From the IMG/VR virus record IMGVR_UViG_3300023097_000002, positions 1 through 64,000 of that record: DNA of 64,000 nt; one strand, 5' to 3'. Below the pieces are notes generated by a model, which worked only from the letters and a program-made list of their open reading frames with translations, had not been told where the DNA came from and made no database searches. The translations under genes and the position numbers were made by a program. Below, piece by piece: positions 5,846 through 43,869 of the stretch (its first letter is position 1; each line of letters starts with the position of its first letter). This DNA comes from a virus.

Positions 5846-5965
5846 TGCACAAGGGCCTTCGCTGCCGAGTGGCAGCCCGGCCGGGTTCACCCCGGCCGGA
5901 AGCCGGTTCGCATCCGGCCGAAGGTACGAAGCGGACGAACGAGCCGCTTGGAAAGGGGACGAGTC

Positions 5966-34197: not shown

Positions 34198-37100
34198 TCA
34201 CACCCCGCTGATCGTCGCTGCGTAGGCCAGCGACCTGTTGATCGTAGTCGACGTGGGCTCGGCCTGCGGGTACTGGTTGTTGATGTTGAAGACGTTCGTC
34301 GGCCCGGTGTTCTGCGGCACCAGCCGGGCAGTGAACACCGACACGCTCTCCGGCGGCACCTGCTGCACCGCGCTGCTGCCGCCGAGCATCGTCGTTCCGG
34401 CGCCGCCCTGCCGCGCCCGGACCTGCTTCGAGCCGCCCGTCACGCCGGAGTCCAGCAGGCGCTTGGCGACGCCACCGAAGCCCCGGCCGCCCGACCGGTT
34501 GATGATCTCCAGCAGAGCGCCGAAGCGCTTGGCCGAGGCGGCGTTCACGACGAACTCGCCATTGGAGAGCATCGCCGGAATCACGTCGGACTTCGGGCCG
34601 CCAGGCCCGTTGATCCAGCCGCCGTTGGCCGCCGCGTAGCTCTTCGGCGGGGAGTTCTTCTGGTAGTAGTAGTAGCCCACCGAGACCGTGGCCTGCCGGG
34701 TCAGCGCGTTGGTGATCCGGCCACCGGCCGTGTATGCGGCCTGGACGATTCCGCCGAGCTGCCGGTTGAAGTTGCCGACACCGGCCAGGGTGACGGTGCC
34801 CTTCGGGTTCAGCTTGCCCTTATTCGCGTCGGCGACCGCGCGCTTCAGGGCCTCCAGCAGCGCCTTGAACTCGTCGTCGTCGAGCTTGCCGTCACCGTTG
34901 ACGTCGAACTCACCGGCCGCCTCCTTGCCCAGGATGAGCTGGGCGAGGGCCGTCATCTGGGCCCGGTACTCCTTGTCGTTGAGCTGCGCCTTGCCCTTCG
35001 GGTTCAGCAGGCCCTGGCCTTCCGTGGATGCCAGGAACTCGGTCATCGCGAGCACCTTCGCCCGGTACTCGGCGTCGCTCAGCTTGCCCTTGCCCTTCGC
35101 GTCCAGCTTGCCTTCAGCCTCCAGGCCGTCCACGAACGTGGTGAGCTGGGTGAGCTGCGACTGGAAGATCAGGGTGTTGAGGGTGGCCTTGCCCTCCTTG
35201 TTCAGGTTCGTGTTCTTCAGCAGCTCCTGGAGCTTGGCGATGTCGCCCTGGGCCTTGATGATGTCGATGGCGACCTCGGGCTTGACCTTCTTCTTTCCGA
35301 CGAGGTCGATGTACAGGCTCAGGTCACTGAGCGACTTGAACGCCTTCGCGTCGTCGGCGGAGATGTCGATCTTCACGCCCTTGACCTGGCTGAGCTGCGT
35401 CACCAGCTTGGCGTACTGGTTCGACACGTCGGCGAAGTCCTCGCTGGTCTTCGCCTTGTCGATCAGGTTACCGAAGACGTCGGCGATGATCGTCCTGGTC
35501 TGGAGGGTGGCGTTCTCGATCTTCCCGGAGTTCTGGATGATGGCCGCCGCGAGGTTGCTCGTGGCGTCGCCGCCGATCTCGGCCAGGCGCGGGCCCAGCT
35601 TTTCCAGCTCCTTCGCGGAGAGATCGGCCAGCTCGGCAACGGCCGGTGCCGCCTCCGGACCCATCTTGCGGAACTGCTCCGCGACCTCCGGGCCGAGAGT
35701 CGCGGAGATCTTGATCAGGTTCGCCGACCAGTCACGCTGCGCCTTGGCGATCTTCTCCAGTTCCTTGATATAGGCGTCCAGTCCGCCCTTGGTCTTCAGT
35801 GAGAACTTGTCAATCGCATCCTCGGCCTTGCCGAACGCCGACTCGGCCGCCGACTTGAAGGCATCGAGCGGAGTACCGAACTTCTCGAACGAGGTCGCGA
35901 GCTGGTCGATCGCCTGCTGCGCCTCCTCGCCCGTGGTGTCCAGGTCTTCCAGCGCGGACTTCGTCAGCTTGATCTTGCCGCTTGCCGAGCTGGCTGAGGT
36001 GCCCGTCTCGTCGAGCGCGTCGGCCAGCAGACCCTTCGTGATCGAGAGCTTCGTCGAGGCGCTGTCCTCGGCGGAGATCGTCGTACGCAGGGCCTCCAGG
36101 AAGTTCTTCAGGCGGATGGCCGCTGCCGCCTCGCTGTTGATCTGCTCGCCGAGCTTGCCGGAACCGGCGGGCGCGTAGTTGTCGGCCGTCTTGCCGACTT
36201 CCTTGATCGCCGCGTCGAGCTGCTTGAGCGCCTTCCCCGGGTCCTGGAGAGACAGCTCCAGGACATCGCCCACGTTCACGCCAGCCGTGGCGAGCTGGTC
36301 GAGGGCATCGGCGCTGATCTTGCTCCCGTCGGCGAGCTTCGACGTCTCGATGGCCGCCTGTGCGGTGTCGAGCAGCCACTGCTTGGTGTTCTCGCCGATG
36401 GCCGCCGTGTTCTCGCCCAGCGCCTCGGTCGTCTTGTTGATGACGCCCTCCTCCTTCGCGATCTCGCGAAGGTAGCGCTGGGCCGCCTGGGCTCCGGTGC
36501 CGTGCCCCTTGGCCTGCTCTTCCAGGGCCTCCTTCGAGCCCTTGGTGGCCTCGATCGCCCGCAGCCGCTCCTTGGCCTCGGTGCGCGCCGCCTCGGCCGA
36601 ACGCTGGTCGGCGTCAGCCAGGTCGCCCTTCGTGGTGGTGATCGTGCGGTACACGCCGATCGCGCCCAGGGCCTCCTTCGAGCCGTCCCGGATCGCCGCG
36701 TTGTACTGCTTCACGCCACCGGCCGCCAAGACCGCCGCATCGGTGTCGGCCTTGATGGCGTTGGCCAGGGCCTGCGTGCCGCCACTCGCCTCGAACGCGG
36801 CATCGGCGATCCTCTCGGACTCCGAGCGGAAGTCGAACATCTTGCCGATGAGCGGGCCCAGCAGGATGCCCGCCGTGGCGATGGCGATACCCCACGGACC
36901 GAAGGCGAACGCTGCCGCTCGGGCCGCCAGGCCGGAGGCCGTGATGCCGGTGGTCGCCCGGGTGAAGGCGCCCGCAGCAACAGTGCTTGCCGCAGCGGCC
37001 GTTCCCATACCGGCACCCATCTGAGCACCGGCCGCCGCCGCGTTGCGCATGGAGGCCGACATCAGGTTCGTCGTCGGCACCGCACGGGCCGTCGTGGTGT

Positions 37101-39417
37101 TCAGACCTGCCACAGCCGCCGCCGAAATGGCCGTCTGACCGGCGAAGACGCGAGAAGAGTTCGCGATCTGCGTTTGCGTGAGCGCCAGGTTCCGGTTGAC
37201 GTTCGAGACGTTGGCCATGGCCAGGGCGGAGGCGGTCGCCTGGGCGCTGAGCTGGCGCATGGAGGTCTGCGTGGCCAGCGTCGAGGCGAACAGGGCGTCC
37301 TGTCCGCGCACCGCGTTGAGGCTGGCCGTGCTCATCGCGTTCAGGCCGGTCGCCGACTGGGCCGCCGCCAGCGAGTAGCCCCGGATCGTCGTGGACGACG
37401 CGGCGAGCGCCGTCGACAGCGCCTCCGTGCTGACCGTGAGCTGCCGCTGGGAGTTGGCCGCTGCCGCCTGCGCCGCCGTCGTGCCCTGGAAACCGTTGCG
37501 GTAGATGTCGAGCGCGACGCGAGCGCTCAGCGTGCTGACCTTCAGGCGTTCCTGGAGTTCCCGGGCCGCGATCAGGGACTGGATCGTCTTCGACAGTGCC
37601 ACCTGGTACAGGGCCCATCCGGCTGCTGCCGTGACCGCCAGGGCGCCGAGGGTGCCGACGATCGGAACAACCGGTCCGAGGTGGGCGAGGAAGCCGATGA
37701 CGTTGGCCAGGTTGCCCGCGACGGAACCGATGGCCGTGGCCAGCGGACCGCCGAGAGTGGCCAGCAGGGTCTGGAAGGCGTCGGAGAGGTTCTGGAGTTC
37801 GGCCGCCGTGGTCTGGTAGATGCCCTTGGACTGGCGGTTCAGTTCGGTGCCCTTGGCGAACTCCTGGTTGGCCCGGTCGAAGGACTCGCTGACGATGTCG
37901 GCGTTGTTGGCCAGTCGGGAGAACACGTCGATGTCGCGGACCGCGTTGACGCCCAGCTCGCGGAGTACGCCCTGAACGTCGCCACCGGCTCCGGCCGCCC
38001 GGCTGAGGCCCTGGATGAAGGCCAGCAGGAAGTCGCCGCGCGTCGCCGGGTTGTTGTAGAGCTTCGAGACCTCGGAGTCGGTCATCCCCATGACCTTGGC
38101 GAGCTTGCTCAGCTCGGTGCCACCGTCGGAGACGGCCGTGGACAGCTCGTTGAACACACGGGTCAGGGCACCGCGTGACAGCTCGGGCCGGACCTGGAGG
38201 GTGGCAAGGGCGGCGGAGAGACCGGCCGTCTGCTGGGCCGTGAGGCCGAACAGGTTCGACACGGTGGCGATCGAGGCGTTGACGCGCAGGATCTCCTGAT
38301 CGGTCGCGGCCGACGCGGTACCGAGGGCCAGAATCGCGGAACCGAGCTGGTCGATCTCGGAGATCGGCACATCCTGCATCTGGGCGATACGGCCGAGGAG
38401 CAGCGTTGCCTCGTCGGCCGCCACACCCGTGGTCAGCGAGAACTTCACGATCGTGTCGGTGAAGTCGCCGAGGTTCTGTTCCGAGATGCCGATGGCCGCA
38501 CCGAGCTGACCGATGCGGGCGACTTCCTCGAAGGAGATCGGCGCCTGCTGGGCGATCTCCTGGAACCTCGCGAGCAGGCCAACCGAAGCGGCTTCCGCCT
38601 CGCCGACGACTCGGGCCACCTGCGCGAACGCCGCCTCCTGCGAGATGGCCGCTCCGGCGAGCGCGGTGGGCACCTTCGACAGGACGTTGAACAGCGACTG
38701 GAAGGCGCTCTCCAGCTCGCCGACGGTGTTGCGCAGGGCGAACGTGGAGCCCGAGTAGGAAACCGTCGACTGATGGGCACTCTGGGTCGCCTGGGCGGTG
38801 CGGGCGCGGGCGGCGGCCAGGGCCTGCTCCTGCTGGGCGATGCGCTGAGCCGACTGGGCCAGCTTCTCCCGCTGGATGGCCAGCTTCTGCTCTTCGAGCG
38901 CGAGCCGCTGGGAGGTCTCGGCGGCCTTCCTCTTGGCCTGCTCCTCCTTCTGCTGCGCGGCGATGGCGTTCTGAGTGATCGACGACATCGACTTCTGCGC
39001 GCTGGCGAGCTGGTTGATCACTGCGGCCAGCTTCTGGTACAGCGTGACCGTACGGTTCAGCCGCTGGTATTCCTTCTCGCTCAGGCCCTGAACGGATGCC
39101 AGGGCGGAGCGGAGCTGCTGGAACGCCTGCGTCATCAGCTTGGCGCCGTTGGCCGACGCCGACTCATTCTTCTGGAGCGCCTGAACTGCGGAGGCGTAGT
39201 TCTTGGTGGCCGACGTGATCTGGTTGTAGACGGTCAGCGAGGTGCGGAGCTTGGCGGCAAGGCCGCTCTCGACCAGGGCGACCTTGCTCAGAACGGTGTT
39301 CAGATTGGAGAAGACCTTCTCCATCTGGCCGCCGGACTTGGTGACGGCCTGAGCGCCCTGCGCGAAAGAGCGGATGTCCAGGTTGATGCGAGCTGTCGCA
39401 TCGAAGCCCGTTGCCAC
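34198..39417 (-). CDS. Tail tape measure protein with EF-hand-like repeats
   Basis: 1739 residues. Long heptad regions lie at about 1-230. TP901-type tape-measure sequence spans about 230-640, and hydrophobic segments lie near 560-610 and 835-865, as expected for a protein released into the host membrane. Residues 1406-1545 hold 33-residue repeats, one with a perfect EF-hand loop at 1505-1516. The length suggests a tail of roughly 260 nm using the usual 1.5 angstrom per residue. It precedes the distal tail gene. Confidence 0.93.
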   Translation of the reverse strand: MATGFDATARINLDIRSFAQGAQAVTKSGGQMEKVFSNLNTVLSKVALVESGLAAKLRTSLTVYNQITSATKNYASAVQALQKNESASANGAKLMTQAFQQLRSALASVQGLSEKEYQRLNRTVTLYQKLAAVINQLASAQKSMSSITQNAIAAQQKEEQAKRKAAETSQRLALEEQKLAIQREKLAQSAQRIAQQEQALAAARARTAQATQSAHQSTVSYSGSTFALRNTVGELESAFQSLFNVLSKVPTALAGAAISQEAAFAQVARVVGEAEAASVGLLARFQEIAQQAPISFEEVARIGQLGAAIGISEQNLGDFTDTIVKFSLTTGVAADEATLLLGRIAQMQDVPISEIDQLGSAILALGTASAATDQEILRVNASIATVSNLFGLTAQQTAGLSAALATLQVRPELSRGALTRVFNELSTAVSDGGTELSKLAKVMGMTDSEVSKLYNNPATRGDFLLAFIQGLSRAAGAGGDVQGVLRELGVNAVRDIDVFSRLANNADIVSESFDRANQEFAKGTELNRQSKGIYQTTAAELQNLSDAFQTLLATLGGPLATAIGSVAGNLANVIGFLAHLGPVVPIVGTLGALAVTAAAGWALYQVALSKTIQSLIAARELQERLKVSTLSARVALDIYRNGFQGTTAAQAAAANSQRQLTVSTEALSTALAASSTTIRGYSLAAAQSATGLNAMSTASLNAVRGQDALFASTLATQTSMRQLSAQATASALAMANVSNVNRNLALTQTQIANSSRVFAGQTAISAAAVAGLNTTTARAVPTTNLMSASMRNAAAAGAQMGAGMGTAAAASTVAAGAFTRATTGITASGLAARAAAFAFGPWGIAIATAGILLGPLIGKMFDFRSESERIADAAFEASGGTQALANAIKADTDAAVLAAGGVKQYNAAIRDGSKEALGAIGVYRTITTTKGDLADADQRSAEAARTEAKERLRAIEATKGSKEALEEQAKGHGTGAQAAQRYLREIAKEEGVINKTTEALGENTAAIGENTKQWLLDTAQAAIETSKLADGSKISADALDQLATAGVNVGDVLELSLQDPGKALKQLDAAIKEVGKTADNYAPAGSGKLGEQINSEAAAAIRLKNFLEALRTTISAEDSASTKLSITKGLLADALDETGTSASSASGKIKLTKSALEDLDTTGEEAQQAIDQLATSFEKFGTPLDAFKSAAESAFGKAEDAIDKFSLKTKGGLDAYIKELEKIAKAQRDWSANLIKISATLGPEVAEQFRKMGPEAAPAVAELADLSAKELEKLGPRLAEIGGDATSNLAAAIIQNSGKIENATLQTRTIIADVFGNLIDKAKTSEDFADVSNQYAKLVTQLSQVKGVKIDISADDAKAFKSLSDLSLYIDLVGKKKVKPEVAIDIIKAQGDIAKLQELLKNTNLNKEGKATLNTLIFQSQLTQLTTFVDGLEAEGKLDAKGKGKLSDAEYRAKVLAMTEFLASTEGQGLLNPKGKAQLNDKEYRAQMTALAQLILGKEAAGEFDVNGDGKLDDDEFKALLEALKRAVADANKGKLNPKGTVTLAGVGNFNRQLGGIVQAAYTAGGRITNALTRQATVSVGYYYYQKNSPPKSYAAANGGWINGPGGPKSDVIPAMLSNGEFVVNAASAKRFGALLEIINRSGGRGFGGVAKRLLDSGVTGGSKQVRARQGGAGTTMLGGSSAVQQVPPESVSVFTARLVPQNTGPTNVFNINNQYPQAEPTSTTINRSLAYAATISGV
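34770..35202 (-). repeat. Five 33-residue pseudo-EF-hand repeats in the tape measure
   Basis: Loop starts fall at residues 1406, 1439, 1472, 1505 and 1537. Only the fourth (DVNGDGKLDDDE, 34870-34905) has all calcium ligands. The others keep positions 8 and often 12 but replace ligand Asp residues with Lys (for example DAKGKGKLSDAE). Confidence 0.75.
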
Positions 39418-41715: not shown

Positions 41716-42128
41716 CAGCGACCACCCACTCGCGCCTGAAGCTCGGCGGTCACCTGGTTGAAGGCGTCGAGCACGGCCATCATCGGGGTGATGCCGTTCC
41801 GTGTACCGAACTCCTGGAAGGGTGCGTAGTACGGGTTGTTGGACTCCCACCCGAAGGAGATCTTCAGGATGTCCGTACCGAAGTCGCCCGTACCGGTGAC
41901 GGAGGACTTCATCCGCCCCGTGTCCACGCGCGACTTCGCCCGCACCAGACCCTCGCCCCGGCGCCGGGCGTTCGACATGTCCAGAACCAGTCGCTGACGG
42001 GACTTGTTCAGGTGGTCGATGACGAACGCGGAGAGGCCGATGTCGAAGGCGCCGTTCGGAGTGCCGCCGCCGTAGTACCGCTGGGCACCGCCGAACCGGT
42101 AGTTGTACTTGATCCCGATATACGCCAT
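41715..42128 (-). CDS. HK97 gp10-like tail completion protein
   Basis: 137 residues. AKSRVDTGRMKSSVTG near 67-81 followed by YYAPFQEFGTRN near 101-112 is the pattern of the HK97-gp10 family, which joins head and tail. An N-terminal NYRFGGAQRYYGGG stretch is extra. Coupled to the glycosyltransferase upstream by ATG/stop overlap. Confidence 0.78.
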   Translation of the reverse strand: MAYIGIKYNYRFGGAQRYYGGGTPNGAFDIGLSAFVIDHLNKSRQRLVLDMSNARRRGEGLVRAKSRVDTGRMKSSVTGTGDFGTDILKISFGWESNNPYYAPFQEFGTRNGITPMMAVLDAFNQVTAELQARVGGR

Positions 42129-42958
42129 TACAGGGCCTCCCTCACCTCGTCGACCGGAAGGTTCTCGTCCAGGTCGATGACCTCATGGTCCTTCATCAGA
42201 CCCGCCATCGCATTCATCTCTTCCGAGGTCATCGAGAGGATCCTCTCCGACCGGCGCTCGATCGAGCCCGAGAGTTTCCGGCCCGTCCGGTTGTACCCGT
42301 AGAACCCCGCATGGAAAGCCCGGGGCTGCGCGGGGTACACCGTCACCCCCCGGCCGCTCTCCCGGATCCGGTTGAACAGGCCGTCCTGCTCCGCGTGCCC
42401 CGGCGGGATCTGACTGCCGGGGAAGGTGCGGCGGCAGTAACCGACCATGTCGCCGTAGTACACCGGCTTGTTGTGGGCAACCGCGCGGCGGGCCACCTCG
42501 GGCCGGAAAGACACTCCGAGCGACTGGTAGGAGGGGTGCCGGTAGGCCGCCGCTGGGGGTTCTCCGGTCAGGTTCTGGTTCCGGCAGGCACTCACCGAGA
42601 AAGCATCCGGAGCCGCCGAGTGGGCTGCTTCGTGATACGCGAAGTAACCGAGCGAGACCATGATGTCGTCCTCGACCACGTGAATCAGGTCGGCTTCGAT
42701 GGACAATGCATCCTTCAGTCCAGACAGGATGTTGTAGGAATTCCCGTGGAACTGGTGATGGTGCATCACGCGCAGAAAAATCTCGGAGAACGAGCTGGAA
42801 AAGGATTCGGCCACCTGGCGGCATTCCAGGGTGCCCTTCCGGTCCAGCGTCACCACCACTCGCACGTCATAACCCGCCGCCGCCTTGGCCAGCCGGGTGA
42901 GGCAGGCATGCAGCATGTCGGGCCTGCGCCACGCCGGAACCAGAACCGTGTGCTTCAC
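42128..42958 (-). CDS. GT2-type glycosyltransferase in the virion operon
   Basis: 276 residues. TVLVPAWRRPDML at the start, a VEDDI acidic metal site near 95-99, and PVYYGDMVGYCRRTF with a downstream HAEQDGLFNR give a GT-A fold. It likely adds a sugar to a virion protein, since it sits between connector genes. Overlaps the GT4-type gene by four bases. Confidence 0.85.
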   Translation of the reverse strand: MKHTVLVPAWRRPDMLHACLTRLAKAAAGYDVRVVVTLDRKGTLECRQVAESFSSSFSEIFLRVMHHHQFHGNSYNILSGLKDALSIEADLIHVVEDDIMVSLGYFAYHEAAHSAAPDAFSVSACRNQNLTGEPPAAAYRHPSYQSLGVSFRPEVARRAVAHNKPVYYGDMVGYCRRTFPGSQIPPGHAEQDGLFNRIRESGRGVTVYPAQPRAFHAGFYGYNRTGRKLSGSIERRSERILSMTSEEMNAMAGLMKDHEVIDLDENLPVDEVREAL

Positions 42959-43869
42959 CGCTCCACCAGCCTCAGTGCGATTTCCTTGAACTCGGCATTG
43001 CGCTTCAGGAAGCGGGCGCGAACCGCTTTACCGATCTGCTCACGTCGTTCCGGGGTGAGGGCTGCGGCCCGGCGTACCGCCTCGGCAACGAGCGTCGGAG
43101 AGGTGTACGTGAGGATCGCCTGGTGGTGGTTGCGCGTGCTGGTCACTCCGACCAGGTAGCCCCACTCCGGCCTGATGTGCTCATTCATCGGTGAGGCGTC
43201 GGTCGTCACCACGATGGCGCCCACCGACATGGCCTCGGTGATGTAGTGGCCCCACCCCTCGGCAATGGAGGGGCAGACGTGGATCTGCGCCTCGTTCATC
43301 AGGCGATTGCGCTCCTCGTCGGAAGGCGAGAGGACGACGGTGATGCGGTCTTCAAGCCCCGCCGGAATGTGCACCTCATCCTTCGAGATGATCGTCAGGG
43401 GCGGCAGGGTCGAGTCCTTCTGCCAGGCGCCGATGACCTGTTCCGTGCCCTTCATCCCTGACCGGCCGCGCAGATGCATGCACTTCAGCTCACGCTTTAC
43501 GTCTGGATCATGGAGATCTGTTCCCAGAAACCCGGTGAGCTGCACGTTCTTGCCGCCACGATTGCGGCAGAACCGCAGTGCGTAGTTGCTCTTGGCCCAG
43601 ATCTGATCGAACGCCGCAAGGTATTTCATCCACTCCCGTGGATACCATTCCAGGTTCAGAATGGCGATGTTCTTGTCGGCGAACTGGGCGAGGTTCCGGC
43701 TGACCAGTTCGAGATGGAAAGCGACGTCCGTCCGGGGCATCTCCTTCGCCTGCCAGTCATGGAATTCCACTTCGTGCCCAGCCGACTCGAAAAGCTCGGT
43801 GAGCAGTGCGGCATCCAGCGACAGACCCACGCCATTGTCCCGGCTGAGCAGCGCAATCTTCAGGCCCAC
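42955..43869 (-). CDS. GT4-type glycosyltransferase in the virion operon
   Basis: 304 residues. The N-terminus has KIALLSRDNGVGLSLDAALL. The nucleotide-sugar half has VCPSIAEGWGHYITEAMSVG near 200-219, the E-x7-E-type motif of GT4 enzymes (GT-B fold). Coupled to the GT2-type gene, so the two may build a disaccharide or act on two targets. Not needed for assembly in most siphophages. Confidence 0.87.
   Translation of the reverse strand: MGLKIALLSRDNGVGLSLDAALLTELFESAGHEVEFHDWQAKEMPRTDVAFHLELVSRNLAQFADKNIAILNLEWYPREWMKYLAAFDQIWAKSNYALRFCRNRGGKNVQLTGFLGTDLHDPDVKRELKCMHLRGRSGMKGTEQVIGAWQKDSTLPPLTIISKDEVHIPAGLEDRITVVLSPSDEERNRLMNEAQIHVCPSIAEGWGHYITEAMSVGAIVVTTDASPMNEHIRPEWGYLVGVTSTRNHHQAILTYTSPTLVAEAVRRAAALTPERREQIGKAVRARFLKRNAEFKEIALRLVER

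Follow-up and report, generated by a model that had tools for sequence, protein, structure and literature searches.

The locus examined here raises the question of whether a loop bearing the signature of an EF-hand, embedded in a tape measure protein (TMP) of a bacteriophage, is a genuine calcium site and, if that is the case, what use the phage may make of it. The window, i.e. the whole stretch of 64,000 nucleotides that was analyzed, is a portion of a 72-kb IMG/VR virus record, and the loop lies in the product of its tape measure gene.

The tape measure protein and its phage relatives

The gene and the conserved end of its product are located as follows:

34198..39417, minus strand: tape measure protein gene, 1739 aa, GTG start, an open reading frame
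34201..34305, minus strand: TMP C-terminal segment (GPTNVFNINNQYPQAEPTSTTINRSLAYAATISGV), invariant across the four BM TMPs aligned

The homology of its core and its position in the tail gene cluster together identify the 1739-aa protein as a tape measure: it matches PhageMin_Tail (PF10145) above the cut-off and the PHROG tape measure families at 4e-77, and it is 93% identical to the annotated gp67 of the Streptomyces phage Frankenweenie, 85% identical to its counterparts in JustBecause and Kela and 82% identical to those of Satis, Kradal, Quantum and EhyElimayoE. It is a member of the cluster BM Streptomyces phage TMPs, and Satis, JustBecause and Frankenweenie are cluster BM siphoviruses with large prolate heads (PMC6687918; PMC10652959). 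By analogy with the TMP of mycobacteriophage Douge (PMC13033339), the C-terminal segment is likely the hub-contacting end.

Other features of the region deserve mention in their own right. Between its conserved ends the TMP has a stretch that varies among BM phages (residues about 590-880, positions 36780-37650), and in the middle of the protein Kradal is 26-61% identical per 100 columns as opposed to more than 70% elsewhere. Two adjoining genes at 42128-43869, annotated as glycosyltransferases in relatives, are found within the tail gene cluster, near the major tail protein gene, and ARAGORN predicts at 5855-5927 a tRNA-SeC whose anticodon, tca, would read UGA.

A tandem array with a period of 33 residues

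The initial annotation had described loops at TMP residues 1406, 1439, 1472, 1505 and 1537, and these positions proved exact, with spacings of 33, 33, 33 and 32. In a BLOSUM62 self-comparison of residues 1346-1560, periods of 33 and 66 scored best among those between 5 and 89, and the observed period-33 maximum was reached by none of 2000 shuffles. The units and their loops are listed below; R-1 and R0, which we infer to be units as well, are strand-helix segments without EF character.

35290..35382, minus strand: unit R-1 (KGVKIDISADDAKAF...), residues 1346-1376, from sequence and alignment
35209..35289, minus strand: unit R0 (KVKPEVAIDIIKAQ...), residues 1377-1403, from sequence and alignment
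35110..35208, minus strand: unit R1, residues 1404-1436, unit HMM 35.3 bits
35167-35202, minus strand: putative R1 pseudo-loop NKEGKATLNTLI, from residue 1406, by sequence
35011..35109, minus strand: unit R2, residues 1437-1469, unit HMM 40.6 bits
35068-35103, minus strand: putative R2 pseudo-loop DAKGKGKLSDAE, from residue 1439, by sequence
34912..35010, minus strand: unit R3, residues 1470-1502, unit HMM 43.2 bits
34969-35004, minus strand: putative R3 pseudo-loop NPKGKAQLNDKE, from residue 1472, by sequence
34816..34911, minus strand: unit R4, residues 1503-1534, bearing the intact loop, unit HMM 38.8 bits
34870..34905, minus strand: predicted complete EF-hand calcium loop of R4, DVNGDGKLDDDE, residues 1505-1516, by PS00018, Pfam EF-hand_1 and conservation
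34717..34815, minus strand: unit R5, residues 1535-1567, unit HMM 35.3 bits
34774-34809, minus strand: putative R5 pseudo-loop NPKGTVTLAGVG, from residue 1537, by sequence

The unit HMM, built without the relatives L019 and L057, recovers the units of the window at 35-43 bits, five of five, as well as five of five in L019 and two clearly in L057. Tandem Repeats Finder detected no 99-bp array in the DNA, a result on which a recent tandem duplication was rejected and from which it follows that the duplication is probably old.

One complete loop among five

That one of the five loops, at residues 1505-1516, is a perfect EF-hand had also been claimed, and the claim was borne out: it is the sole match to PROSITE PS00018 in the TMP (1505-1517), and the expectation of 0.0027 such matches per shuffled TMP rules out a chance motif. 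Only R4 combines ligands at positions 1, 3, 5 and 12 with Gly at position 6 and a hydrophobic residue at position 8, and a signature search of the other reading frames of the window returned no second EF-hand. Pfam EF-hand_1 (PF00036) gives 28.5 bits on the array segment, where the cut-off is 25.4, and 23.0 bits, below the cut-off, on the whole TMP.

The remaining loops satisfy one to five of the six EF positions across the 12 aligned sequences, while Gly4 and the hydrophobic residue 8 are retained in nearly all rows. Lysine does stand at ligand positions in the window, as the initial annotation had it (position 5 in R1-R3; position 3 in R2, R3 and R5), and among the relatives position 5 is Lys or Arg in most rows of R1-R3, the R5 of the window having Thr. 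Judged by these residues, R1-R3 and R5 are most likely pseudo-loops that keep the residues of the fold, with the calcium ligands mostly replaced by Lys or Arg at position 5. The companion idea that Lys-Asp bridges take the place of calcium fared worse, as position 1 is Asn and not Asp in R1, R3 and R5, so that a bridge within the loop is not generally available. Among the relatives, R2 is the pseudo-loop unit that most resembles a true EF loop, as with DADGKGAFSDEE in L037.

It could be argued that R4 originated as a host module, an EF-hand or a dockerin, that was inserted into unrelated tape measure repeats, and two observations point that way: an HMM of R4 alone scores the sister units at only 5-6 bits, equal to shuffled segments, and a resemblance to dockerins is perceptible in the best Dockerin_1 (PF00404) score, which was obtained in L057 and remains below the cut-off of 22.9 (17.7 bits, E=0.004; the window gave no match). 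However, R4 has the same register and length as its neighbors, and in both L037 and L020 only one or two residues separate R2 from a complete loop. Moreover, when every R4 is withheld from the HMM, R4 is still recovered in five of the six sequences examined, at 15.1 bits in the window (the best of 200 shuffled segments reaching 6.2), 18.6 in L010, 14.2 in L037, 13.7 in L056 and 10.3 in L057, the R4 of L020 being the one not found. Since this HMM detects R4 without having been built on it, we read R4 as a sister of the pseudo-loop units, a relationship to which these profiles lend moderate support, and we regard an inserted module as distinctly improbable.

Conservation of the loop in relatives

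The TMP relatives retrieved from IMG/VR and from genome scans span identities of 99% to 20% across the array region. The initial annotation had suggested looking for the 33-residue period in related tape measures, and there the repeat units do recur, and 10 of the 12 sequences aligned have an intact R4 loop; all six EF positions are preserved in these down to 35% identity, and the loop is kept by all close relatives and by some distant ones. It occurs as DVNGDGKLDDDE, DANGDGKLSTGE, DVNGDGKLSTSE, DVNGDGKLNDDE, DVNGDGKLSTGE, DVNGDGILSDDE, DVDGSGDLDDDE and DVNGDGKFNDTE, with positions 9-11 variable and positions 1, 3, 5, 6, 8 and 12 constant, and the key positions are 94% conserved over the eight non-redundant EF-bearing rows. 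In L037 the stretch DVNGDGKL reads DVDGSGDL, so that N has changed to D, D to S and K to D, each of which the EF consensus allows, and in L057 (35% identity) R4 is intact even though R1 and R2 have lost their EF character. Selection on the protein is indicated by synonymous codon changes at D1, N3 and G4 of the loop.

Two distant TMPs, L038 and L041, have three units only, with pseudo-loops of the DPDG[KR]A type or similar and no intact loop; given that pseudo-loops stand where the intact loop would be, the EF site is not essential to this type of TMP. On these few rows, the loop may have been gained on one branch or lost on the other.

These two relatives, together with the fact that one loop in five is complete and that the sister loops do without calcium ligands, would be compatible with the R4 loop being a non-binding acidic turn, a coincidental sequence retained for folding in the same way as its sisters. 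We consider this unlikely in view of the retention of the six EF positions across large divergence, the ligand-for-ligand changes in L037 and a Pfam EF-hand_1 score above the cut-off on the segment. Because what is conserved is the ligand chemistry, the R4 loop likely binds calcium, and its sequence marks it as a genuine and conserved calcium loop of the EF-hand type, present in one of the units of the TMP repeat array.

A tblastn search with the array in 50,697 phage records gave credible matches in only seven BM phages, besides two stray matches at E=6-8; in a search of genome contigs the repeat region found no match and the TMP core found two. The window TMP shares with siphophage TMPs in general (PF10145; PHROG 17594) its core, gene order and conserved C-terminal segment, but seven other phage TMPs (Amavida, Commonplace, WaterT, Yappy, CMP1, Pavlo and Pan2) have neither a unit HMM match nor the EF loop, which rules out a general phage TMP repeat.

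The provenance of two relatives is worth recording. L056 (NZ_JANCLX010000014.1, 185,382 bases) is a BM-like TMP in the draft genome of Streptomyces sp. NEAU-Y11, an assembly that also encodes a portal protein (G001:C6:1668-3395) with 81% identity to that of the window; this 185-kb contig matches a whole BM phage genome in size, and the strain may carry a BM-like phage or be contaminated by one. L057 (CAMFDH010000008.1) is a distant BM-type TMP, with the EF loop intact, on a contig binned to an uncultured Actinomyces MAG.

Predicted structure and likeness to known calcium proteins

AlphaFold2 models computed from 9 and 12 rows had mean pLDDT values of 61.5 and 50.3, the larger set being the worse, and values near the R4 loop of about 57-70 and about 40. 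In both of these low-confidence models helices of about 15-20 residues are separated by loops at R2-R5, the R1 loop is drawn helical, and the helix that follows the R4 loop begins, as it does in EF-hands, at loop position 10 (residue 1514). The helix-loop-helix fold that had been anticipated is only weakly supported: helices and loops do alternate in the two low-confidence models, whereas the E helix finds no match in Pfam and a conserved glycine precedes the loop. A canonical E helix is doubtful, given that in nearly all rows the alignment to the 29-position EF-hand_1 profile opens only at position 7-8 (at 4 in L037) and that Gly1502, just before the R4 loop, is retained in EF-bearing rows; a loop followed by a single helix, as in dockerins, fits better than a canonical EF-hand with its E helix. 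Foldseek searches with these poor models returned from the PDB no fold below E=0.001 and from BFVD one match below 0.001, a viral protein with 85% identity that probably belongs to the same family as the window TMP.

With the EF-hand superfamily the array shares the complete 12-residue loop, the six key positions, the hydrophobic residue 8 and the helix after the R4 loop; it departs from the superfamily in the unmatched E helix and the glycine before the loop, in having one true loop out of five and in its setting in a TMP, and its spacing is 33 as compared with about 36 between the EF loops of calmodulin. Type I dockerins have a DVNGDGK-type loop, then a single helix, no clear E helix and a close loop spacing, and it is in loop type, single helix and spacing that the TMP array resembles them; it differs in having five units where dockerins have two, and in lacking ligands in four of the five. 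The array is not assigned to this family, which has two loop-helix repeats both with ligands, and PF00404 stays below its cut-off or gives no match. In S100 and similar proteins pseudo-EF-hands are paired with true ones, and the array likewise keeps degenerate loops beside one that is seemingly functional, its pseudo-loops being distinguished by Lys or Arg at position 5.

Calcium and the tail

The initial annotation envisaged a calcium-sensitive switch for tail opening, in which calcium at residue 1505 would alter the shape of the TMP in the virion and release the tip. That the final fifth of the TMP contains a complete, conserved loop is in keeping with such a role, and so are the calcium-induced opening of the purified baseplate of the lactococcal phage p2 (PMC7472080) and the calcium and magnesium that other Streptomyces phages reportedly need (PMC5336643); the propagation media of BM phages contain calcium too (PMC10652959), from which a calcium dependence does not follow. 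However, the calcium-binding loops of p2 belong to Dit, not to the TMP, and its virions were not activated by calcium alone (PMC7472080); p2 is at most a possible analogy for calcium in a siphophage tail, with the ion lying between Dit loops and not in an EF-hand. Distances also speak against a switch. The tail of Frankenweenie measures 303 +/- 11 nm (PMC10652959) and its TMP has 1739 residues, which amounts to about 1.74 A per residue; at 1.5-1.74 A per residue the array, separated from the C-terminus by 172-335 residues, would by this arithmetic lie about 26-58 nm above that end, whereas the part of the Douge TMP that was traced in the baseplate hub comprises just its last 42 residues (PMC13033339). 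Nothing observed connects the loop with the hub, L038 and L041 are without the site, and we therefore hold a tail-opening switch to be very improbable and less likely than a structural site.

Secreted RTX repeats, with their GGxGxD motif and many sites, undergo calcium-induced folding outside a channel. Their fold and motif differ from those of the TMP array, the shared idea being that of folding outside a channel: the array might be unfolded or stretched in the tail and fold on calcium outside or in the envelope, thereby helping to pull the TMP out. The roughly 1.74 A available per residue leaves little space for compact folds, and TMP release has been proposed to come before DNA ejection (PMC13033339), but the single site here contrasts with the many of RTX arrays, and such a role has only an outside chance of being correct. 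The chance is slimmer still that an EF-hand-type site folding on calcium after release helps to extract the TMP and makes BM-type infection calcium-dependent at the stage of ejection.

A probable structural calcium site in one copy of a repeat

The explanation that we prefer, with a probability of roughly 0.55, is that the array consists of five tandem homologous units in which R4 alone keeps a calcium site, binding one ion and stabilizing the packing with a neighboring pseudo-loop. The array occupies the last fifth of the TMP, and its repetition, the kinship of its units and the conservation of the R4 loop are established by the sequences. In each unit an EF-type loop of 12 residues, which includes a short strand, would be followed by a helix of about 19 residues, with the four sister copies degenerate or non-binding. 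One calcium ion at R4 would stabilize the loop-strand-helix array, and the strand of R4 would pair with the adjacent pseudo-loop in the manner of the pairs of true EF and pseudo-EF loops known elsewhere; calcium binding, loop pairing and structural use in the array are what we infer here. The compact form might exist mainly outside the narrow tail lumen, when the TMP is not yet assembled or has already been released, since there would hardly be space for three folded copies next to one another if BM tails have dimensions like those of another phage, Douge, whose lumen is about 35 A wide and holds a TMP trimer (PMC13033339). A literature search that was poor in subscription journals yielded no account of a TMP with an EF-hand, and the authors who screened the structural proteins of TP-84 for an EF-hand found none.

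Many phages require calcium to infect and the virion sites responsible are mostly unknown. Asp1505 offers one exact residue for testing in phages that are grown in the laboratory, namely Satis, JustBecause and Frankenweenie. The array also illustrates how a calcium site may be kept, or may arise, in just one of the copies that make up a structural repeat, the others being devoid of the full set of ligands.
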